From positions 1 through 47,385 of IMG/VR virus record IMGVR_UViG_3300037189_008601: a stretch of 47,385 nt of DNA; one strand, given 5' to 3'. Shown here piece after piece: positions 15,634-42,924 of this stretch (positions within the stretch are counted from its first letter, which is position 1; each line of letters starts with the position of its first letter). Both the position numbers and the translations under genes were made by a program. Under the pieces are notes generated by a model. It had not been told where the DNA came from and ran no database searches. It saw only the letters and a list, made by a program, of their open reading frames with translations. Source of the DNA: a virus.

Positions 15634-16929
15634 ATGCCTACTGCTATTAATAATCCAGCGCTCAGTACTCTTCAAAACATACTTGTATACAACATACAGG
15701 TCGATGGGATTGCGCTTAACCTATCTCCTTCAGAACTTAAAAAGGTAGAGGTAGAGAATAAGGAGAATCAGCATGAGGCCGCCCTTATCACTACTCAACT
15801 TACTAAGGCTCAAATCAGTAAGTTTGCAGGTAAGAGGATTCAATTTACGTACGGTAAAAAAACTTCGCCAGCTACGTTTTACGGGTACATCCTGACAGTT
15901 ACTCCAAGCAGTGAATATCAGCAAGACACAGTTGTAGATCTTCTATGCATTGGCCCGACTTGGCCATTACAGGGCGGAAGTCCAAAGTTCGAAACAAACC
16001 TTACAGCCCAAGATATGTTTGTAAAAATAATCAAGGGCGTTAAGGGATCTAATGCTTCCAACAGTTACTATGAGGGTTATTCGCTTGGAGTTCAAGTAGA
16101 CCGCAATGCTTCTGATTTCGTATGGCCTGCGCTTGCCCAGACCAATGAGAGTGATTGGGAATTTCTGATCTGTTTAGCAGAACGGGTCGGTTATTGCATT
16201 TACGTCTATAACGGAGTTATCCGACTCGTCAAACCAATACGGGTGCTCACTCGTACGAGGCCGGTAACTTCTAGTTTCATAAAGGGCGATGATGTTCTTG
16301 ATCCTACAAGGGCACTTTTAGAGTGGAATGCTACTACTCAGTCCTTGGAAATCCGAGACAACATCCAGCCATCCTTTGGCTTTTTTGATGAAGATAATAA
16401 GGGCGCTTTTAGTAAGCTGCCAACTCCAAACTCTCCATTCAGATTTGTAGCTGATACGCCTAGCAAAAGCCGTGCTATGGCGGAGCAATACGAGAATGCA
16501 TCATGGATAAACCGTATTGATTATTGGAATAATCAAGCTACAGCCCGAGTAAATGGTAATGCTGCGCTTGTTCCGGGAACCACAGTTCCCATACAGGTAA
16601 GCGGAGTTGCAGGAACTGCCTCTAAGAATGATTCAGACGGTATCTGGCTGGTACGAGGTGTCCATCATATTCTTACCCATAACTCATTTCAGACAGAATT
16701 AGATCTTGCTAGGGATACCAACACGCTTCCCACAAATCTTATTGCAAGGAACTTCTGGGAGCCTAAGGTAAATAGCGGATCTCCAAAGATGTCATGGGAT
16801 TACGAGCATGAGCGCTGGGTATCTTCATGGTCTCAGGTAGAATATGTATCAGAAACTTTGATAACAGATACCTATGTCAACGGAAACATTACGGCCACTA
16901 CTGCCCCTGACATGGTACCTGTACGATAA
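15634..16929 (+). CDS. Baseplate hub protein (gpD/gp27-like)
   Basis: A 431-residue protein with the features of the phage late-control D/gp27-type hub: an N-terminal barrel with VEVENKENQHEAALITTQL and IQFTYGKK, then a second region (about 120-200) with AQDMFVKIIKGV, QTNESDWEFLICLAERVGYCIYV and IRLVKP. The 'W.FL..La.r.Gy...v' stretch is characteristic. It ends with GTASKNDSDGIWLVRGVHHILT, the usual hub C-terminal barrel. The hub trimer would anchor the spike and connect the tube to the wedges. Neighbours on both sides are baseplate genes. Confidence 0.82.
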   Translation: MPTAINNPALSTLQNILVYNIQVDGIALNLSPSELKKVEVENKENQHEAALITTQLTKAQISKFAGKRIQFTYGKKTSPATFYGYILTVTPSSEYQQDTVVDLLCIGPTWPLQGGSPKFETNLTAQDMFVKIIKGVKGSNASNSYYEGYSLGVQVDRNASDFVWPALAQTNESDWEFLICLAERVGYCIYVYNGVIRLVKPIRVLTRTRPVTSSFIKGDDVLDPTRALLEWNATTQSLEIRDNIQPSFGFFDEDNKGAFSKLPTPNSPFRFVADTPSKSRAMAEQYENASWINRIDYWNNQATARVNGNAALVPGTTVPIQVSGVAGTASKNDSDGIWLVRGVHHILTHNSFQTELDLARDTNTLPTNLIARNFWEPKVNSGSPKMSWDYEHERWVSSWSQVEYVSETLITDTYVNGNITATTAPDMVPVR

Positions 16930-24691: not shown

Positions 24692-24862
24692 GGATAAGAA
24701 CATCTCCAGTACATTCTTGAGATCATGAGCATCTCGTCTAGACATGGAGATGTTCAATACCTTGCCACTACTTTTGAACGCCAAGGTCACCGCTCTTTCA
24801 CTTGTGTAACGAGCGGTGACCGGGGTGTTCTTATCGTGTAGATGGCAATAGGTCACAGGCAA
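24647..24862 (-). CDS. Possible minus-strand small protein, doubtful
   Basis: A 71-residue minus-strand frame runs from TTG 24862 (or GTG 24856) to 24647 and overlaps the 3' end of the preceding gene by 45 bases. The protein (YTSERAVTLAFKSSGKVLNI, then DAHDLKNVLEMFL) could fold as beta-beta-alpha. It would be divergent from the replication operon, with an operator-like palindrome at its start. However, no ribosome-binding site is visible and most of the frame consists of strong inverted repeats. A non-coding role for this region is at least as likely. Confidence 0.25.
   Translation of the reverse strand: MPVTYCHLHDKNTPVTARYTSERAVTLAFKSSGKVLNISMSRRDAHDLKNVLEMFLSSDWDGGLVDRIDRD
24785..24821. 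repeat. 11-bp perfect inverted repeat (hairpin)
   Basis: GGTCACCGCTC (24785-24795) is the exact reverse complement of GAGCGGTGACC (24811-24821), with a 15-base loop. It is the strongest stem in the non-coding region. It is not followed by a T tract, so it is not a classical intrinsic terminator. Confidence 0.75.
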
Positions 24863-24902
24863 ACATTAGTATAAGTTTGCAATCGGTGCAATTACTTATA
24901 GT
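24859..24902. promoter_or_regulatory. Operator-like palindrome and weak promoter
   Basis: GCAAAC (24859-24864) and GTTTGC (24875-24880) form a perfect 6-bp inverted repeat around ten A/T-rich bases, a typical repressor-site layout. Overlapping it, TTGCAA (24877-24882) and TATAGT (24897-24902) resemble -35 and -10 boxes, but the 14-base spacer is short. The site lies 21 bases upstream of the first replication gene and would suit control of early transcription. It is inferred only. Confidence 0.4.
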
Positions 24903-24922
24903 ACTTTTCGAATGGAACAATC

Positions 24923-25984
24923 ATGGCAGAGAAACCGAATTATCGGACAATTGATCTATCCAAGGCAATAGCCTTTGGATGGACAGCCCATCATGACCTG
25001 AACGCTGCTGAGATTCAGGTTTTCATGTTCATGGCAGCAAGAGGGAAGACCAACGAAGAAGGCATGGCCTTCGCTTGGTTCCCCATGGGCGGTCAAGAGT
25101 GGTGGGCAGCACAAATGGGTATGACCATTGGGAGGCTCAAGAAGGCCCTTGTAGGGCTGCGTAAGCGCCGCATGGTGGTCAATATGGAGGGGAGTACCGC
25201 AACGCCCCTGTACGGCGCTGTGAAGGGGTACGGAGTGCCTGAAGGGGTCATGTACAACGCCTACCAGTGGTACAAGGAGCGTGAGGACATCCGCTTCCTG
25301 AAGGCACCAAAGGATGCCAGCAGCATCGTTAACGATTCAGATGGAATCCTTAACGATTCAGATGGAATCGTCGACGATTCAGATGGAATCGTGGGCACCC
25401 CCTCTGAGCTGGGCTTTCGCGATACATACCCATGTAATAAACCCGGAGAAAATACCCAACTGTTTACACAGAGCACGCCCCCTTCGGGGTCGCACTCGGT
25501 TCTAACCTCAAAGAAGGATCTTGATGTGAAATACGAAGATGAGTGGTCGGTACCGAAAGATGCAAAACCGGTTAGGTCCAAGAAACCTCCCGTGGATGAA
25601 TTCCTAGTCCCGAAGGATTCTCATGAAGGGAAGGTCCGTCCAACTTCACCAGTCAAGAATCTTGCGGATGAGTTCTACGCCCAGTGGACACAGGCTCGGG
25701 AAGTGAAGACGATGCTGCCAGTTCCGTGGAGCAGCAAGCAGGCGTTCTACGCACGCATGAAGGACCTGCTGGGAACCCATTCCGAGGAACAGATCATCGA
25801 GATGTTCAAGACGTTCTTCCGAATGGTTCTTGCTGGCCGAATCAATCCGAAGGGGAATGAGCTTTGGAAGGATTTCTGGAATAACCGGGCATCCATCGCA
25901 ACGTCCGCACGAATGTCGACGAAGGAAGTACCTGCTGATCAGCAGACCGAACTTGAGAACTGGCGAAAGAAGATCCGTCGATGA
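24923..25984 (+). CDS. Replication initiator-like protein (winged-helix, O-type)
   Basis: A 353-residue protein. The N-terminal ~110 residues (TIDLSKAIAFGWTAHHDLNAAE, WWAAQMGMTIGRLKKALVGLRKR) have the appearance of the winged-helix domain of phage replication initiators and DnaD/O-like proteins. A low-complexity linker at about 135-160 is a 7-residue repeat (NDSDGIL, NDSDGIV, DDSDGIV) encoded by palindromic 21-bp iterons. The C-terminal region (about 240-345: FYARMKDLLGTHSEEQIIEMF) may contact the loader. It overlaps the DnaC-like loader by four bases (ATGA), the lambda O-P type arrangement. The initiator role is inferred from architecture and context. Confidence 0.72.
   Translation: MAEKPNYRTIDLSKAIAFGWTAHHDLNAAEIQVFMFMAARGKTNEEGMAFAWFPMGGQEWWAAQMGMTIGRLKKALVGLRKRRMVVNMEGSTATPLYGAVKGYGVPEGVMYNAYQWYKEREDIRFLKAPKDASSIVNDSDGILNDSDGIVDDSDGIVGTPSELGFRDTYPCNKPGENTQLFTQSTPPSGSHSVLTSKKDLDVKYEDEWSVPKDAKPVRSKKPPVDEFLVPKDSHEGKVRPTSPVKNLADEFYAQWTQAREVKTMLPVPWSSKQAFYARMKDLLGTHSEEQIIEMFKTFFRMVLAGRINPKGNELWKDFWNNRASIATSARMSTKEVPADQQTELENWRKKIRR
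25334..25390. repeat. Three 15-bp palindromic iterons, candidate replication origin
   Basis: GATTCAGATGGAATC occurs exactly at 25334-25348, 25355-25369 and 25376-25390, phased at 21 bp (two helical turns). Each unit has GATTC/GAATC inverted arms around AGATG. They sit in the middle of the initiator-like gene, as lambda's origin iterons sit in gene O, and a moderately A/T-rich stretch (about 25425-25465) follows. The repeat is seen directly; the origin function is inferred. Confidence 0.65.
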
Positions 25985-26547
25985 TCCGCTCCCCTGAAGG
26001 ACAGTTCTCTCCCGGCTCCCCTGTGCCCTATTCGTACCCGGTCAACCTGTCTGAGAACTTCATGGTGCAGGAATATCTCCTCAGTGCAGCGTGGGAAAAC
26101 GGGGGCGGAATCCTGCTTCTGGGATTTGCTGGAACAGGAAAAACGGTAACCGGTATTGCGATTCTCCGAGAACTTGCTAAGGTCTCGCCCCTTGAGATGA
26201 TCTATTGGACCGAGCACGACTTCCTCGCCGACCTTCGGAACCTGTGGCGACTCGAAGAAATGACTCAGAAGTTTTCCCGAGACGATGCTCTGTGGGCGGA
26301 CTATGTGGCATGGGAACGAGCGTTCTGGGATCTGAAAGAAGCTCCGTTCTTGTTCCTCGATGATGCCTGTAGGGGGTACACCCCAATGCAGTACTACGAA
26401 GTTGAAAATCTGTTACGCCTTCGTGAGGCAAAGTCTTTGCCAACCATCGTGGCAAGTCAATCGCTTCAGTGGGAAAACGCAGCACCCGGACTTACGTCCG
26501 TTGTTGAACGCAACAGCTTGATCATTAGAGTCGATTCGAAGGAGTGA
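25981..26547 (+). CDS. DnaC-like helicase loader, AAA+ ATPase
   Basis: A 188-residue ATPase with Walker A GFAGTGKT (residues 48-55) and Walker B FLFLDDA (123-129), plus a sensor-like region IVASQSLQWEN near 160. The size and motifs match DnaC/DnaA-type loaders that deliver the replicative helicase to the origin. The genes on either side (initiator-like, then DnaB-like helicase) support the role. It starts at an ATGA overlap and is followed two bases later by the next gene. Confidence 0.85.
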   Translation: MIRSPEGQFSPGSPVPYSYPVNLSENFMVQEYLLSAAWENGGGILLLGFAGTGKTVTGIAILRELAKVSPLEMIYWTEHDFLADLRNLWRLEEMTQKFSRDDALWADYVAWERAFWDLKEAPFLFLDDACRGYTPMQYYEVENLLRLREAKSLPTIVASQSLQWENAAPGLTSVVERNSLIIRVDSKE

Positions 26548-26548
26548 C

Positions 26549-26983
26549 GTGGAAAACGGAGACTTGGAAGCATGGATGGACAACCGAATTGTGGTGGTGC
26601 TAGAAGGTATCCTCGCTCAGGTTCCCCCTCCTGAAGTTCATAGGTCGGGACTCCTTGGTCGTAACAAGGAAACCGAATGGGTGTCTGCGGATAACTGGGG
26701 ATGGAGCAAGCACGCCATCAAGATAATCAATGACAAGGCTTACCGGATGAACACTCCGATTGATGTAGTGACGTTCCTATCTCCTGAAGTTGGAGACATG
26801 GCGGCGGACTGGTTGGATAAGTACGAGGTCCGAGTCTCATCATGTGAGTATTCGGATTTTGAAATGTTCTGCGAATCCCTATCATGGCGTCCCAATGTCC
26901 ATCATGTGATCGACTCGGTTCCTGATCGACTTGATCATTACGGAATTCGTGCTTACGAGACTCAGTTTGGAGGGTATTTCTGA
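26549..26983 (+). CDS. HAD-fold-like protein lacking the usual nucleophile
   Basis: A 144-residue protein with a GTG start. It reads like a small HAD-superfamily protein: an N-terminal strand NRIVVVLEGILAQ where motif I (DxDGxL) is expected, then TPIDVVTFLSPEVGDMAADWL near motif II, and HHVIDSVPDRLDHYG near motif III. The catalytic Asp pair of motif I is replaced by Leu-Glu, so it may be inactive as a phosphatase, or the resemblance may be superficial. It sits inside the replication operon, and its stop overlaps the next ATG. Low certainty about function. Confidence 0.5.
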   Translation: MENGDLEAWMDNRIVVVLEGILAQVPPPEVHRSGLLGRNKETEWVSADNWGWSKHAIKIINDKAYRMNTPIDVVTFLSPEVGDMAADWLDKYEVRVSSCEYSDFEMFCESLSWRPNVHHVIDSVPDRLDHYGIRAYETQFGGYF

Positions 26984-27192
26984 TGAAAAGTAGGAACATG
27001 GGCAGTGACTGGCTAAAGCTGCTCAAATCTGCAAAAAGCAGGGGCTGGGAAGAGATTAGGATTAGTAGTAACCATCATCTCATCCTCTTGTGGCCCATCA
27101 CCGGCAAGAAAGTGACCGTCAGCGGTTCCAAAGATCCGGGTGCCATCAAGCAGGCCCAAAGGCAGATGGCGAAGATCGAACAGGGGTTCTAG
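26983..27192 (+). CDS. HicA-like small protein without a HicB partner
   Basis: A 69-residue basic protein: SDWLKLLKSAKSRGWEEIRIS, then SNHHLILLWPITGKKVTVSG and a final helix. The layout (helix, strand, His-containing strand, strand, helix) fits the double-stranded-RNA-binding-like fold of HicA mRNA interferases, with the His of SNHH in the expected place. No antitoxin gene follows; the helicase gene starts at the stop codon (TAGTG). It may be an RNA-binding regulator or a host-takeover RNase. Moderate confidence in the fold, low in the role. Confidence 0.6.
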   Translation: MKSRNMGSDWLKLLKSAKSRGWEEIRISSNHHLILLWPITGKKVTVSGSKDPGAIKQAQRQMAKIEQGF

Positions 27193-28520
27193 TGGATACA
27201 CAGAACGCTTGTCTCTCAAAGATCGTTCTTGAAGGGGAGCTTCTTCCTTTCATCGAATCAAAGATCAATAGCCAGTTCTTCACTGACGAACGCCATTGTC
27301 AGATATGGGAAATGGTTCTTGATCATTACAAGAAGTACGGTAAGCCTCCGTCTGAGGACGTGATCCATAAGGCTTACCCCACTTACGATTTCAATAAGTA
27401 CCCCGAACCGGCTTCGTACTATCTGAACCAACTTAAGCAGGACCGTAAGAAGGTCATCCTCACCACAGTAGTTCAGGAATACATCCAGCGAGTTAATGAT
27501 GAGGAAGGCCCTCACATCGGAGATGAGCTTGAGTTCATTCTCCGAGACGGCCTGACCAAATCTGCTCATGAAATATCTCAGGGTAGGGATACAGACTTCT
27601 TCCTTTCACACGAACGCATTATCGATCGTCTAAAGGAGCGTCGGGACAATCCCGGATATCTTCGGGGCATCACGACTGGGCTTGATGGTATCGACAAGCT
27701 GACCGGAGGTCTTCAGAAGGAACAGTTGATCACAATGGTGGGTACGCCGAAGGCTGGTAAGTCAAGCCTCTTGCTCAAGTTGGCATTCAACGCTCATCGA
27801 AATGGCAACTCTGTTCTCTTCGTCACCTTCGAGATGGGTACTGAGGAACAGGAAGACCGACTGGTCTCTCTTATCTCTGGCGTTGGTCTCACAAAGATTC
27901 TCACCGGTACGTTCACTCCTGTAGAAGAGAAGAAAATACGAATGGCCCTCACTCTTCGAAAGGATATGCAGGGGTTTACCATCACCAGCGATGTATCCAG
28001 TGCAATCACCGTTTCAGGTGTTCAGGCAAAGATTCAGCAGTACCAGCCAACTCTGGTGATCATCGATGGTGTCTACCTCATGGACGACGAGGCCGGTAAT
28101 GACAAAGGAACACCGCAGGCCCTCACTAGCATTACCCGAGGTTTCAAGCGGCTGGCACAGACCCTTCGCATCCCGATCGTGATCTCCACTCAGGCAATGC
28201 TTTACCGTTCCAAAGGTGGCCTGAAGATGGAGTCCATCGGTTACTCGTCATCATTCGCTCAGGACTCAGATATCGTCTTTGGTGTAGAACCTCACGAGCA
28301 GCTTCAAGGTGTGTCTAAATTCAAGGTCATCGCTTCTCGCTCCAGTCCGAAAGGGGAGGCCCACGTTCGGTTTGACTGGAACAACGGAATCATTGAAGAA
28401 ATCAAGGATGACGACTACGAGCAGATGGTGAACATGGCTATGCCAATCGCCTCTAGTAGCGCCCCTAAGCCGTCATCACTTAGAAGTCATTGGGAATCGG
28501 AGGATGAAGGTGCAGCTTGA
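27192..28520 (+). CDS. dnaB: Replicative DNA helicase, DnaB-like
   Basis: The start is GTG 27192, overlapping the preceding TAG by one base; this gives VDTQNACLSKIVLEGELLPFI, the expected N-terminal helical domain, whereas a longer frame would run through the upstream gene. Of 442 residues, ~1-110 form the N-terminal domain and ~165-420 the RecA-like ATPase with Walker A GTPKAGKS (184-191), VLFVTFEMG, and Walker B LVIIDGVYLM. It unwinds DNA at the fork as a hexamer. Neighbours are the loader upstream and the primase downstream. Its 3' end overlaps the primase gene by 17 bases. Confidence 0.94.
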   Translation: MDTQNACLSKIVLEGELLPFIESKINSQFFTDERHCQIWEMVLDHYKKYGKPPSEDVIHKAYPTYDFNKYPEPASYYLNQLKQDRKKVILTTVVQEYIQRVNDEEGPHIGDELEFILRDGLTKSAHEISQGRDTDFFLSHERIIDRLKERRDNPGYLRGITTGLDGIDKLTGGLQKEQLITMVGTPKAGKSSLLLKLAFNAHRNGNSVLFVTFEMGTEEQEDRLVSLISGVGLTKILTGTFTPVEEKKIRMALTLRKDMQGFTITSDVSSAITVSGVQAKIQQYQPTLVIIDGVYLMDDEAGNDKGTPQALTSITRGFKRLAQTLRIPIVISTQAMLYRSKGGLKMESIGYSSSFAQDSDIVFGVEPHEQLQGVSKFKVIASRSSPKGEAHVRFDWNNGIIEEIKDDDYEQMVNMAMPIASSSAPKPSSLRSHWESEDEGAA

Positions 28521-29412
28521 TCTTGAAGTAATCCTTCACGGTATTGGTGTAGAGATCATAAGGGAGTACGGGGATGAACTACAGGGGCGTTGTCCGTTGC
28601 ACGTTGCACGTACGGGTAAGGAAGATCGACACCCGTCGTGGTCGATCAATACCAAAACCTACGTCCATCACTGCTTCTCTTGTGGATACGCAGGGACGCT
28701 CACGTCCCTTTACCGAGACCTCATGGGAACCGTTCCCGAGGACTTGGAATGGGAGCTTTCCAAGCAGTCCTTGCGGGCATCCTTGGACAAGCCGTTACCA
28801 GTAGCAAAACCCGATGGCCCTAAGGTGGATGAGTGGGTGTTACAGAATTACGCTGATCTTCCTGATCCACTTATTGAACGGCGTCATCTAACCAGAGACT
28901 CTATTGATTTCTTCGGCATTAGATGGGACTCGACGAACAAGGTATGGGTGATTCCGATCAGAAACCCCAACGGTGTTCTCATGGGATTCCAGTTCCGGCA
29001 GAAGGGTGCGGTGATCAACCATCCGGCCGGTATGGAGAAGTCCATCACCATGTTCGGTTTTCATCTGTTCAGAAATCAAGATCGCATAACCGTGGTGGAA
29101 TCCCCTCTTGATGCCGTACGGTTCCATTCGGTTGGGGTACCGGCTGTATCGACGTTTGGTGCCTCCATCAGTAGTTCTCAATTGGAGCTTCTCGCTAGAA
29201 ACTTCAGGTATGTAATAGCGGCAATGGATAATGACTCACCCGGAAAGAAAGCAAATGACATTCTTCATAGAAATCTCAGTAAGCGTGGTTGCGTTGTGTT
29301 TGATTTTGAGTATCTCGGGCTTGACGCTAAAGACCCGGGAGACATCGAATCCGATGAAATCCTACTTCGAACATGGCAACGAAGCGTCCTAATCGACATA
29401 ACTACTTTGTGA
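28504..29412 (+). CDS. DNA primase with CHC2 zinc finger and TOPRIM domain
   Basis: A 302-residue protein. The N-terminal zinc finger has Cys30, His33, Cys57 and Cys60 (RCPLH...HHCFSCGYAG), the CHC2 primase type. The TOPRIM domain (about 190-270) has ITVVESPLDAVRF with the conserved Glu, and IAAMDNDSPGKKA with the DxD-like acidic pair. It makes RNA primers at the replication fork. It is shorter than bacterial DnaG (about 600) because no separate helicase-binding domain is present; it resembles compact phage primases. ATG 28504 lies inside the helicase gene. Confidence 0.9.
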   Translation: MKVQLDLEVILHGIGVEIIREYGDELQGRCPLHVARTGKEDRHPSWSINTKTYVHHCFSCGYAGTLTSLYRDLMGTVPEDLEWELSKQSLRASLDKPLPVAKPDGPKVDEWVLQNYADLPDPLIERRHLTRDSIDFFGIRWDSTNKVWVIPIRNPNGVLMGFQFRQKGAVINHPAGMEKSITMFGFHLFRNQDRITVVESPLDAVRFHSVGVPAVSTFGASISSSQLELLARNFRYVIAAMDNDSPGKKANDILHRNLSKRGCVVFDFEYLGLDAKDPGDIESDEILLRTWQRSVLIDITTL

Positions 29413-40074: not shown

Positions 40075-40231
40075 CACTCCCAAAGGTCCAGCATGGGCCG
40101 TAGTCCTCATCGACTACGGCCCTGACTGGGACCTTTCATGGGTCTGCTTTCTTAAAGATAGTGGCGAATGCTGGACCTTCAGTAACTCTGAAGTTCGTCA
40201 GCCGTCCAACTACACTTATGGACGGCCCTAG
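40043..40231 (+). CDS. Small conserved-looking phage protein, 62 aa
   Basis: ATG 40043 begins inside the preceding gene and the stop overlaps the first base of tRNA-Leu. The core, AVVLIDYGPDWDLSWVCFL then GECWTFSNSEVRQPSNYTYGR, has the 'DYGP..DL.WV' and 'W...N.EVR...N.T.GR' pattern that I recognise from small proteins common in actinophages; no function is assigned to them. The first part of the gene (40082-40136) is also a large perfect hairpin, so coding and RNA structure coincide. Confidence 0.6.
   Translation: MLQLNPPQPLDTPKGPAWAVVLIDYGPDWDLSWVCFLKDSGECWTFSNSEVRQPSNYTYGRP
40082..40136. repeat. Nested perfect hairpin upstream of the tRNA cluster
   Basis: GGGCCGTAGTC (40095-40105) pairs perfectly with GACTACGGCCC (40112-40122) over a 6-base loop, and AAAGGTCC (40082-40089) pairs with GGACCTTT (40129-40136) outside it. 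Total 19 bp with one internal loop. There is no U-rich tail. It could be an RNase processing site, a terminator-like pause or a protein-binding element. Confidence 0.55.
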
Positions 40232-40312
40232 CGGGTATGGCGAAATAGGCATACGCAGGAGACTTAAAATCTCCCGTCTTCGGACTTGTGGGTTCAAGTC
40301 CCACTACCCGCA
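40231..40312 (+). tRNA. tRNA-Leu (anticodon TAA)
   Basis: Acceptor GCGGGTA pairs with TACCCGC (40305-40311). The anticodon stem GGAGA/TCTCC encloses CTTAAAA, giving anticodon TAA. The long variable arm (CGTCTTCGGAC) and T arm GTGGG-TTCAAGT-CCCAC complete a class II tRNA. CCA is not encoded. Confidence 0.93.
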
Positions 40313-40317
40313 CCGAG

Positions 40318-40359
40318 GGGAGCGTAACTCAGTTGGTAGAGTACGGTATTCTTAATCCC
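40318..40359 (+). pseudogene. Truncated 5' half of a tRNA-Lys (CTT)-like gene
   Basis: GGGAGCG, then TA, a D arm (ACTC-AGTTGGTA-GAGT), an anticodon 5' stem CGGTA and loop TTCTTAA (anticodon CTT) are all in place. The 3' anticodon stem that should follow (TACCG) is missing, and the HNH gene starts at 40360. No matching 3' acceptor (CGCTCCC) is found nearby. It appears to be a remnant cut at the anticodon loop by insertion of the endonuclease gene. Confidence 0.7.
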
Positions 40360-40755
40360 ATGACTTTTAAAAATAAACAAGAATACAACAACTACATGAA
40401 ATCCTATATGCGTGAGAAATACCATAAGCGTATGTCTGACGCTAAAAATTTATTTGGTAATTCTTGTTATATATGTGATAGTTCCGATTCATTAGAGTTT
40501 GATCACATTGATCCAGACACCAAAACATTTACTATCGGAAAAATGTGGTCTGCTTCCGAAAGTAAATTTTTAGAAGAATTATCTAAATGTCAACTTTTAT
40601 GTAAAAAATGTCATGTTGAGAAACATAAAAGTCAGAAAGAATGTGGAACTCCTCAAAAGTACTGGCTAGGATGCCGATGTTTTTCTTGTACTAATGCAAA
40701 TTCAATTCATAGTAAAAACTATAAAAAGTCACGCCTCTCTGGCGCAAACGGTTAG
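40360..40755 (+). CDS. HNH homing endonuclease
   Basis: A 131-residue HNH nuclease with zinc Cys36/Cys39 (CYICD), the catalytic FDHIDP (48-49 Asp-His), Cys81/Cys84/His85 (CKKCH) and a distal zinc pair GCRCFSC. It is markedly more A/T-rich than its neighbours, as expected for a recently acquired mobile gene. It begins directly at the broken tRNA-Lys half. Its last 7 codons run into the tRNA-Lys(TTT) gene (40733 onward). The direct repeat TGACTTTTAA (40361-40370 and 40762-40771) brackets most of it. ATG 40360 has no clear ribosome-binding site. Confidence 0.9.
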   Translation: MTFKNKQEYNNYMKSYMREKYHKRMSDAKNLFGNSCYICDSSDSLEFDHIDPDTKTFTIGKMWSASESKFLEELSKCQLLCKKCHVEKHKSQKECGTPQKYWLGCRCFSCTNANSIHSKNYKKSRLSGANG

Positions 40756-40806
40756 CGCAGGTGACTTTTAATCACAAGGTTCTCGGTTCAAGTCCGAGGA
40801 GAGGCA
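40733..40806 (+). tRNA. tRNA-Lys (anticodon TTT)
   Basis: Acceptor GCCTCTC (40733-40739) pairs with GAGAGGC (40799-40805). The D arm GCGC...GCGC, anticodon arm GTGA-CTTTTAA-TCAC (anticodon TTT) and T arm CTCGG-TTCAAGT-CCGAG are all recognisable. The 3' end of the HNH gene overlaps its first 23 bases. No encoded CCA. Confidence 0.88.
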
Positions 40807-40810
40807 CCAC

Positions 40811-40886
40811 CCGGCAGTATCGGCTCACTCTTATACAGTGTTGAAACCGTAGTTGGTACACGGTGGTTCAATCCCACCCTGCCGGA
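40811..40886 (+). tRNA. Atypical tRNA-like element
   Basis: This 76-base element, four bases after tRNA-Lys, has a perfect 7-bp acceptor (CCGGCAG/CTGCCGG) and T arm (GGTGG-TTCAATC-CCACC). Between them the order is odd. The best anticodon-like stem is CACT-CTTATAC-AGTG (candidate anticodon TAT, Ile), only 8 bases after the acceptor. A D-loop-like AGTTGGTA follows it, inside ACCGT...ACGGT. No canonical cloverleaf can be drawn. It may be a degenerate, rearranged or structurally unusual tRNA; the decoding identity is uncertain. Confidence 0.45.
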
Positions 40887-40910
40887 CTAACCGACGTAAG
40901 GATAGATTTA

Positions 40911-41447
40911 ATGCATGATGAAGCCCATAGCTTCTGTGGAAAAGCTATAAGTGTCATAAACAGCGAGTCGTCCACTGGACACTCAGTCGTGCTCGATGTC
41001 GGCGGTAGGGATATCAATGGTTCTATACACTCCTTTTTACAGGACTCGACACTATTCATCTCTGACATCATTGATGATGAAGGCGTTGCATATGTCGTTG
41101 ATTTTTCAGACTATGATGCGGTGTATAACCTCGGTCTAATCGATAAGTTCGATATCTGTATCTCCACTGAAGTTCTGGAACATTCAGAGAACTGGCGAGG
41201 TATTGTTCAGAACATGGTTTCTGCCACTAAGAACGGTGGTTGGGTACTTATTACTTGTGCTACTGATGGGCGTTCTAGGCACTCTGCCATCGACGGCCAT
41301 CTTCTAGAAGAGCACGAGACTGAGTATTATCAGAATGTATCTGAGTCTGACTTTATCTCTTGCGTGTCTGGCCTAGATGTGGCAGTACGCCTCTTTGAAA
41401 TCAATGAGGATTCTTGTGATCTATATGCCCTTTTGAGGAAACTTTAA
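40911..41447 (+). CDS. SAM-dependent methyltransferase
   Basis: ATG 40911, after AAGGA (40898-40902), gives 178 residues; a longer frame would overlap the tRNA-like element. VVLDVGGRDINGS is motif I, FDICISTEVLEHSENWRGIVQNMV is motif II, and ATKNGGWVLITCAT is motif III of class I methyltransferases (UbiE/type 11 type). Directly followed by a glycosyltransferase, it mirrors the fused glycosyltransferase-methyltransferase at 36346-37542. The substrate is unknown, perhaps a glycan. Confidence 0.82.
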   Translation: MHDEAHSFCGKAISVINSESSTGHSVVLDVGGRDINGSIHSFLQDSTLFISDIIDDEGVAYVVDFSDYDAVYNLGLIDKFDICISTEVLEHSENWRGIVQNMVSATKNGGWVLITCATDGRSRHSAIDGHLLEEHETEYYQNVSESDFISCVSGLDVAVRLFEINEDSCDLYALLRKL

Positions 41448-42128
41448 ATGGGCGGGAAAATCAGCGTAATATTGACGGTTTACAACAAGCCCAAGTGGCT
41501 CAAACAATGTATTGACTCAGTCATAGCCCAGACCTACACCGACTGGGAATTGATCATTCTTGAGGACAACTCCCCTGATCCCGAGATACGTAACATACTT
41601 TCTGAATACGAGAATAACCCCAAGATCAAGATCTACTATTCTCACATATCAGATGCTCGCCGTTACGCCACTGCTCGGTATGCGACACTGATCAACTACG
41701 GGGTAAGCGCAATTTCTACGGGTGACTACATCACGTATCTAACGGACGACGATTACTATTACCCGGATAGATTTGAACGTATGGTCAGTTATCTGGAAAG
41801 CTCGGACATTGAGATTGTGTACGGTAGCCAAGATCTGTTATCGGCAGATGATCAGCTTATAGGACAGCGGCCTACTTATGGCATTTTGAATAATGCTTTT
41901 TCTGTCGTTGACCACAACTCTGTGATGCATGAACGCCATCTCTTCTTTGAGGCCGGTGGATGGTCGGACGAACCCCATGTGTGGCTCTGCGCCGATGCAT
42001 TCTTCTGGAAGAGATTGACAGATCGAGGAGTACTGTTCTATCCAGTGGAAGGTTCTCCCACTGAGGCAAAACGGATGCACGAAGATAGCGTGCAGCATCT
42101 GATCTACAGTAATCAATTCAACGTCTGA
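41448..42128 (+). CDS. Family 2 glycosyltransferase
   Basis: A 226-residue GT-A enzyme: KISVILTVYNKPKWLKQCIDSVIAQTY, WELIILEDNSPD, and YITYLTDDDYYYPDRFERMV carrying the metal-binding DDD. It resembles capsular/teichoic-acid-type sugar transferases and may alter the host surface (superinfection exclusion), the virion or a nucleotide-linked product. It starts one base after the methyltransferase stop, so both are co-translated. Confidence 0.85.
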   Translation: MGGKISVILTVYNKPKWLKQCIDSVIAQTYTDWELIILEDNSPDPEIRNILSEYENNPKIKIYYSHISDARRYATARYATLINYGVSAISTGDYITYLTDDDYYYPDRFERMVSYLESSDIEIVYGSQDLLSADDQLIGQRPTYGILNNAFSVVDHNSVMHERHLFFEAGGWSDEPHVWLCADAFFWKRLTDRGVLFYPVEGSPTEAKRMHEDSVQHLIYSNQFNV

Positions 42129-42138
42129 GGAACATATT

Positions 42139-42297
42139 ATGTCAGCACGAGAACTCACACAGGCAGAATCACAAGATCTTGTCACACTTGTCCTTCCTCG
42201 TGTTATAGTCGAAGCTCTCGCCAACCCAGACGGGGAATTCTATGACGGCGAAGTATTTGACGCCGCCTGTGAAAGAGCGCTTAAGCTCTACGACTGA
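42139..42297 (+). CDS. Small hypothetical protein, 52 aa
   Basis: ATG 42139 follows a GAGGA site (42127-42131) and the frame ends at 42297, just before the next gene's AAGGAG. The product (ELTQAESQDLVTLVLPRVIV, then FYDGEVFDAACERALKLYD) is predicted mainly helical. No family is recognised. It has a good ribosome-binding site and tight spacing on both sides. Confidence 0.6.
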   Translation: MSARELTQAESQDLVTLVLPRVIVEALANPDGEFYDGEVFDAACERALKLYD

Positions 42298-42308
42298 AGG
42301 AGACCACC

Positions 42309-42731
42309 ATGCAGACTTTTCTACCCAGCGATAACTTCATCCTTTGTGCCCGAGTGCTGGACCGTCAGCGGCTCGGTAAGCAACGGGTCGAGACGCTTCA
42401 GATCATGCAGACTATCGCCGGTCTTAGCAAGGGCAAGGGCTGGATCAATCACCCAGCCACAAAGATGTGGATCGGCCATGAGAAATATCTCATGGCTTAC
42501 CAAGCTGTGATTATTGCAGAATGGACCGGTAGGGGCTACAAGGACACCTGCTTGACGAAGACTGAAGAAGCCTTCCGTGCAATCACTTCTCCTTCCACCT
42601 ACCCTGAGTGGCTGGGCGATCCTGCCTTCCACGCTGCACACCGCAGCAATCTTCTCCGCAAGGACCCGGTACACTATTCTCAATTCGGCTGGACAGAGCC
42701 TGACAATCTCGAATACGTTTGGCCAGTCTGA
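42309..42731 (+). CDS. MSMEG_6728-like, predicted pyrimidine-dimer glycosylase family
   Basis: A 140-residue protein with the family pattern MQTFLPSDNFILCARVLDRQRLGKQRVE, then GWINHPATKMWIGHEKYLMAYQ, and HRSNLLRKDPVHYSQFGW near the end. These match MSMEG_6728-type proteins, grouped with T4 endonuclease V (pyrimidine-dimer DNA glycosylase) in Pfam Pyr_excise; activity for this branch is a prediction. It may repair UV damage in the phage genome. It lies between the glycosyltransferase and tRNA-Met. An AAGGAG site precedes it. Confidence 0.8.
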   Translation: MQTFLPSDNFILCARVLDRQRLGKQRVETLQIMQTIAGLSKGKGWINHPATKMWIGHEKYLMAYQAVIIAEWTGRGYKDTCLTKTEEAFRAITSPSTYPEWLGDPAFHAAHRSNLLRKDPVHYSQFGWTEPDNLEYVWPV

Positions 42732-42741
42732 ACTGATTCAA

Positions 42742-42815
42742 GCGCCTATAGCTCAGTTGGTTAGAGCAGCGAACTCATAATTCGTCGGTCCTAGGTTCAA
42801 GTCCTAGTGGGCGCA
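42742..42815 (+). tRNA. tRNA with CAT anticodon (Met or Ile2)
   Basis: Acceptor GCGCCTA pairs with TGGGCGC (one G-U). The D arm is GCTC-AGTTGGTTA-GAGC, the anticodon arm GCGAA-CTCATAA-TTCGT gives anticodon CAT, and the T arm is CTAGG-TTCAAGT-CCTAG. Elongator Met and lysidine-modified Ile2 cannot be told apart by eye. CCA is not encoded. Confidence 0.93.
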
Positions 42816-42819
42816 CTTT

Positions 42820-42891
42820 TCGGGGATGGTGTAACTGGCAACACTGCTGGTTTTGGTCCAGCCATTCGGGGTTCGAATCCCTGTCCCCGAG
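42820..42891 (+). tRNA. tRNA-Gln (anticodon TTG)
   Basis: Acceptor TCGGGGA pairs with TCCCCGA. The D arm is GTGT-AACTGGCA-ACAC, the anticodon arm GCTGG-TTTTGGT-CCAGC gives anticodon TTG, and the T arm is CGGGG-TTCGAAT-CCCTG (one end mismatch). It begins four bases after the preceding tRNA. A TATAAT hexamer at 42893-42898 follows, but no good -35 accompanies it. Confidence 0.93.
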
Positions 42892-42924
42892 CTATAATTC
42901 ATACCCTATCCAAAGTGAGGAATT

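Follow-up and report, generated by a model that had tools for sequence, protein, structure and literature searches.

A probable replication origin made of 21-bp-spaced dyad iterons within the initiator gene of an uncultured phage

Introduction

Replication origins located within the gene for their own initiator have been described in phages and in plasmids. In phage lambda, inverted-repeat iterons lie in the middle of gene O, and the origin encodes the linker of the O protein (PMC7466680). In SPP1, oriL is in gene 38, and the products of this gene and of those for the loader and a phage DnaB-family helicase are known as gp38, gp39 and gp40 (PMC6316719). RepA_N plasmids, for example pSK41, encode an initiator with a DnaD-related winged-helix N-domain, and the Rep boxes are central in rep, where the linker encoded by the origin is dispensable (PMC5703833).

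Here, we examine an array of three iterons found inside a gene of an uncultured phage. The window, i.e. the whole stretch of DNA that was analysed, is 47,385 bp long. Based on the repeats, their symmetry and spacing, their conservation in homologues, the predicted layout of the protein and the gene order, the segment 25334-25491 is very likely to be the replication origin of this phage, embedded in its own initiator gene.

The initiator gene and its neighbours

The replication initiator gene (24923-25984, plus strand) is an ORF of 353 aa with homologues in other viral contigs. The model (AlphaFold2, six sequences) predicts a winged-helix DNA-binding domain at about residues 8-126, a disordered linker at 125-239 and a helical C-terminal domain at 243-331. 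The pLDDT of the N-domain block is mostly 75-87, with weaker loops, and that of the C-domain is 76-93. A sequence-only reading of this DNA had called the gene winged-helix initiator-like and the repeats a plausible linker; both descriptions agree with the model, in which the iteron-encoded residues 138-157 fall in the predicted disordered linker. Fold matches to the N-domain include the DnaD N-domain (2v79) and the RepA_N initiators 4pta and 5kbj (Z 6.8-7.7), with which MarR regulators and other winged helices tie (Z about 7-9 over all). For the modelled domain, these matches indicate a winged helix and pick out no one family.

No match to the initiator was found in Pfam or PHROG at E values up to 1, including Phage_rep_O (PF04492) and the O-like PHROGs; lambda O, used as a control, matches the PF04492 family at 5.7e-36. 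One homologue (L012) has a weak match to a DnaD-like PHROG (E=0.03). Searches of the phage collection with the initiator and loader (tblastn) and a first scan of viral contigs with the single initiator sequence returned no match, and a sequence search of solved structures returned chance matches only. As the initiator falls outside the Pfam and PHROG families, we liken it to lambda O, SPP1 gp38 and RepA_N in its working and do not claim membership.

The genes that follow are also on the plus strand. A DnaC-like AAA+ helicase loader (25981-26547; PHROG_50, E=5.8e-9) adjoins the initiator gene, and is followed by a conserved 144-aa protein with no family match (26549-26983), which is syntenic in the relatives checked, a DnaB-family replicative helicase (27192-28520; PF03796, E=1.1e-27; PHROG_19, E=1.8e-59) and a DNA primase with a zinc ribbon and Toprim (28504-29412). 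An SSB-like protein, a DNA polymerase and a UvsX-like recombinase are encoded farther downstream. The initiator gene had been placed directly upstream of both the loader and the helicase genes; this is correct for the loader, but the helicase is two genes farther on. Tail sheath and baseplate genes identify a contractile-tailed phage, apparently a myovirus, and polymerase, helicase and primase are all encoded by the phage itself. At 40231-42892, amid HNH endonuclease, methyltransferase and GtrB-like genes, there are four genes for tRNAs (Leu-TAA, Lys-TTT, Met-CAT and Gln-TTG).

The iteron array

The 15-mer GATTCAGATGGAATC is present in three exact copies in the window, at 25334-25348, 25355-25369 and 25376-25390 (plus strand), with start-to-start distances of 21 and 21 bp, and the array begins 411 bp into the ORF. 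These coordinates and this spacing reproduce those of the sequence-only reading, which had reported three exact GATTC/GAATC copies inside the gene. Each iteron is a dyad with 5-bp arms and a 5-bp spacer, as in GATTC-AGATG-GAATC of iteron 1, for which all relatives have a counterpart dyad; in iterons 2 and 3, the arms extend to ACGATTC/GAATCGT. The pattern GATTC-N5-GAATC occurs three times in the 47,385 bp, each time in an iteron, and 0.07 occurrences are expected from dinucleotide shuffles. A second array was sought within the window and none was found. The gap that precedes the initiator gene contains a strong imperfect inverted repeat (24776-24830; 23-nt arms, 9-nt gap). In two relatives, L004 and L006, the initiator gene is preceded by a different hairpin, a perfect one around GAGAGGCCCCTCAG.

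Such repeats might reflect selection on the protein only, if slippage has lengthened a flexible linker of Asp, Ser and Gly and the DNA repeat is a by-product. That the region encodes a disordered linker is compatible with this, recent duplication can yield exact DNA copies, and a near copy of the 15-mer with two mismatches is found at 16630 in a tail gene. However, simple slippage does not predict palindromes, and recoding of the peptide rejects this explanation. When each peptide was recoded synonymously 100,000 times per genome at the codon usage of the phage itself, none of the 100,000 recodings of the window gave three identical copies with full dyads. The joint P for dyad score and copy identity was <1e-5 for the window and for L004, L006, L007 and L016, and 7e-5 for L012. 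Together with the evidence from homologues and from unrelated phages given below, this makes a repeat maintained only at the protein level highly unlikely.

Homologous initiators

Relatives were reached through the helicase and then with profiles, and a profile of the initiator added one more; a scan of genome contigs yielded no relative. The five distinct homologous initiators are those of L004, L006 (identical to L005), L007, L012 and L016. They are 31-41 % identical to that of the window, and the helicases are 76-84 % identical. All five genes contain three or four tandem dyads with a 21-bp period in the matching place. The dyads are TGTGAC-N5-GTCACA in L006 and L007, GTGCC-ATCTG-GTCAC in L004, TGTGAAATATAGTCACA and TGTGAACATAGTTCACA (GTGAA/TTCAC arms) in L012, and TTGTCCTCAGGACAA (TTGTC-N5-GACAA) in L016. 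As the imperfect left arm GTGCC is found in all three L004 copies, strict symmetry is not needed.

The peptides encoded by the dyads vary, namely DSDGI in the window and VTSGHI, VPSGHI, VKYSHM or VKYSHT/VNIVHT, and VCPQDN in the homologues. Conservation within the protein is lowest in the linker, with 21-26 % identity between the window and L004, L006, L007 or L012 and 15 % for L016, against 34-50 % for the flanking domains. In the sequences compared, what is preserved is the arm length, the 5-bp spacer and the 21-bp period, whereas the DNA words and the residues differ. Alignment of homologues had been proposed as a check on the array; the homologues do not retain the 15-mer itself, but they do retain the dyad architecture, while the peptide varies. 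Because the dyad geometry is kept while the encoded peptide changes freely, the constraint acts on the DNA, which contradicts the protein-level explanation. Retention of the layout with a change of letters among related phages is the mark of a replication origin, of the known lambda/SPP1-like kind.

The 144-aa protein is 78-85 % identical to that of most relatives and 51 % to that of L016. Compared with the helicase and, in most relatives, with the 144-aa protein, the initiator has diverged far faster, and these identities suggest that initiator and origin have either been exchanged or changed rapidly together.

Dyad arrays are also typical of centromere sites, and a parS-like partition site or an incompatibility site, serving plasmid-like maintenance and not replication initiation, would have this appearance. 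However, the array accompanies the initiator gene in every relative, the window proteins scanned with PHROGs (a subset of the ORFs) include no match to a partition protein, and a myovirus-like phage with its own polymerase, helicase and primase is a poor fit to such a role. We consider a partition site extremely improbable.

Elements downstream of the iterons

Further elements follow the array on the plus strand. The conserved element TACATACCCATGTA (TACAT-ACCC-ATGTA; 25423-25436) lies at +32/+33 from the last iteron. L004, L006 and L007 have exactly the sequence of the window here, although the codon frame in the window is shifted by one base relative to the others. A match as long as TACATACCCATGTA was obtained in about 1 % of synonymous recodings of the window.

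Three ACCC-N9 units at 25428, 25441 and 25454 form a ladder with 13-bp steps (25428-25466), each unit in a different codon phase. The period is 13 bp in the window (+38, +51 and +64) and 12 bp in L004, L006, L007 and L012 (+37, +49 and +61). The approach and both ladder steps are thus each one base longer in the window, three bases in all, which restores the frame. The P value of the ladder given the peptide is 0.009-0.047 per genome; with random codons, it is about 5e-5 or less. The initiators of RK2 and F bind short repeats of the DNA unwinding element (DUE) on one strand (PMC4081077), and we infer that the ACCC ladder may plausibly be a site of this type, as a candidate set of unwinding or single-strand binding repeats.

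A hairpin, GCCCCC-TTC-GGGGTC, with five of six pairs formed, is found at 25477-25491 (+87), at the site where the relatives have perfect stems. L004, L006, L007 and L012 have a 6-bp stem with a 3-nt loop at +84, and the stems show compensatory changes (GAGATC/GATCTC, ACGACC/GGTCGT and GCGACC/GGTCGC); L016 has two longer hairpins. The P values for the hairpin given the peptide (0.0004-0.03) are modest when taken singly, as are those for the ladder. No Rfam family was found in this region.

Dyad arrays elsewhere in IMG/VR

IMG/VR was also scanned by DNA pattern alone. A search for three GTGAC-N5-GTCAC dyads with a 21-bp period returned the relatives and one further sequence, L020, where an O-like gene (PHROG_678, E=5e-30) contains the array and a lambda P gene (PF06992, E=1e-26) comes next. 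The two-copy pattern was found in 14 stretches. For 9 of the 11 that are not relatives, the array is within an ORF that matches replication-initiation, O-like, DnaD-like or replisome-organizer families. These nine are L020 (2229-2358), L043, L044 and L047-L052, with GC contents of 37-63 %. Depending on the codon phase, the dyad encodes VTxxHP or GDTxSP, and both phases are found within one gene in L020, L048, L049 and L052; an identical dyad in two frames of the same gene also argues against a repeat of the protein only. From its distribution, GTGAC-N5-GTCAC is possibly a widespread phage iteron word. The other two of the 11, the related viral contigs L045 (1350-1480) and L046 (5061-5191), carry five such dyads, spaced 22, 22, 21 and 51, outside recognised initiator genes, and these arrays could be an origin or an operator that lies apart from the initiator.

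GATTC dyad pairs with 21-bp spacing elsewhere in IMG/VR were in no recognised initiator gene, but in a tail tube gene, in a small ORF or outside recognised genes. PHROG matches were checked for the representatives L028 and L031 (the L030 protein is that of L028, and those of L034, L035, L037, L038 and L041 are that of L031), and the remainder had no recognised initiator ORF. Hence, GATTC is not a general iteron word.

The Streptomyces phages pSt2308 and GiJojo encode a related helicase and a loader annotated as DnaC-like, but this loader is not preceded by a dyad array. A stand-alone protein of about 150 aa is encoded there before the loader (L026:6559-7014 and L027:6450-6926), and neither a winged helix-turn-helix nor iterons were seen. 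The 151-aa protein bears a faint resemblance to the C-domain of the initiator (hhalign probability 20 %, E=1e-3), and homology is not claimed.

Base composition and regulatory signals

There is no clear AT-rich tract beside the iterons, with 30, 45, 60, 65 and 25 % AT in the successive 20-bp segments that follow them; by the identical measure, the tract of lambda is clear (70 and 85 %). Within the region, stability is lowest in a 40-bp stretch just upstream of the initiator gene. GC skew, which had been named as a check, is weakly compatible with an origin at 25.3 kb, but the shift is weak and the minimum is nearer 20 kb, so this measure is not decisive. A promoter scan around the initiator gene performed no better than on shuffles, and no terminator was found there.

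The position of the least stable stretch would suit an arrangement in which the dyads are an operator, bound by the protein chiefly to repress or tune transcription of its own replication operon, and replication starts at another site, such as the AT-rich gap at about 24865-24922; the resemblance of the winged helix to MarR-type repressors points the same way. However, the dyads are 411 bp into the gene and away from any recognised promoter, and further conserved elements follow them. Homologous and unrelated phages keep the dyads in initiator genes, some beside loaders, and in lambda that layout is the origin. An operator in place of an origin is thus unlikely, and the two functions are not exclusive.

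Proposed mechanism and significance

If 25334-25491 is the origin, the winged-helix domain of the initiator would bind each dyad as a dimer, and dimers two helical turns (21 bp) apart could stack to form a nucleoprotein core. The core would open the adjoining stretch containing TACATACCCATGTA and the ACCC ladder, perhaps gripping one strand at the ladder. The helical C-terminal domain of the initiator would then recruit the phage DnaC-like loader, which would place the phage DnaB-like helicase, with the phage primase and polymerase acting next. The downstream hairpin may mark an entry site or a priming signal.

We tentatively suggest, at somewhat less than even confidence, that the window represents a new family of initiators, with a self-sufficient replication module that also comprises loader, helicase, primase and polymerase. 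On this view, a change of initiator went together with a change of iteron word (GTGAC to GATTC, and TTGTC in L016) while the 21-bp frame stayed fixed, unwinding depends on a sequence-specific 12/13-bp ACCC ladder and a hairpin and not on an AT-rich tract, and GTGAC-N5-GTCAC is an iteron word that recurs across unrelated phage initiators. The locus provides a testable origin for an uncultured myovirus family with an initiator that escapes all family models. The homologues with swapped iteron words are a natural experiment on how the site of a winged-helix initiator can change along with the protein without loss of coding by the gene. The 21-bp dyad-array search, which led to the initiator genes of unrelated phages, is suggested as a general route to phage origins.

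Comparison with known systems

The O-like and DnaD-like initiator genes of L020, L043, L044 and L047-L052 share with the window the dyad geometry and the 21-bp steps inside the gene. Their dyad word is that of L006 and L007, GTGAC and not GATTC/GAATC, and they differ from the window in having unrelated initiator sequences and variable array lengths and spacings (15-66 bp between some copies). The RepA_N plasmids resemble the window in having repeats centrally within the initiator gene, where the linker is encoded. The modelled winged helix matches the RepA_N structures 4pta and 5kbj at Z about 7, and MarR and other winged helices tie with them. However, the RepA_N initiators belong to a plasmid system in which the C-domain binds host DnaG, and the window protein has no sequence match to the family.

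Lambda oriLambda resembles the window in its in-gene inverted-repeat iterons about two helical turns apart, its origin-encoded linker and the loader gene that comes next. It differs in having four iterons of 18 bp each (spaced 20, 24 and 23 bp), a strong AT-rich tract and an initiator that matches PF04492. Lambda also relies on host DnaB and an unrelated loader, P, whereas the phage studied here itself encodes helicase, primase and polymerase, and its loader is of the AAA+ DnaC-like type. The sequence-only reading had proposed a lambda-type origin, and the homologue dyads, the synonymous nulls and the model with a winged helix and linker support this in the sense of layout and mechanism, with origin activity as what we infer from them. 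It does not hold in the sense of O family membership or of an AT-rich tract, as the protein has no match to the O family models and no tract was found; 'lambda-type' therefore names a layout and mechanism, not a family.

SPP1 is the nearest in overall logic, because it also encodes a loader and a DnaB-type helicase of its own. The array or origin is inside the initiator gene in both phages, a likeness that rests on gene order in the window and on the published description for SPP1. SPP1 differs in its second origin, oriR, its AT-rich unwinding element and its use of host primase and polymerase. An origin with iterons inside the initiator gene is a kind already known from lambda, SPP1 oriL and RepA_N plasmids, and the placement of the window as a further member is, by layout, well supported by the sequence comparisons.
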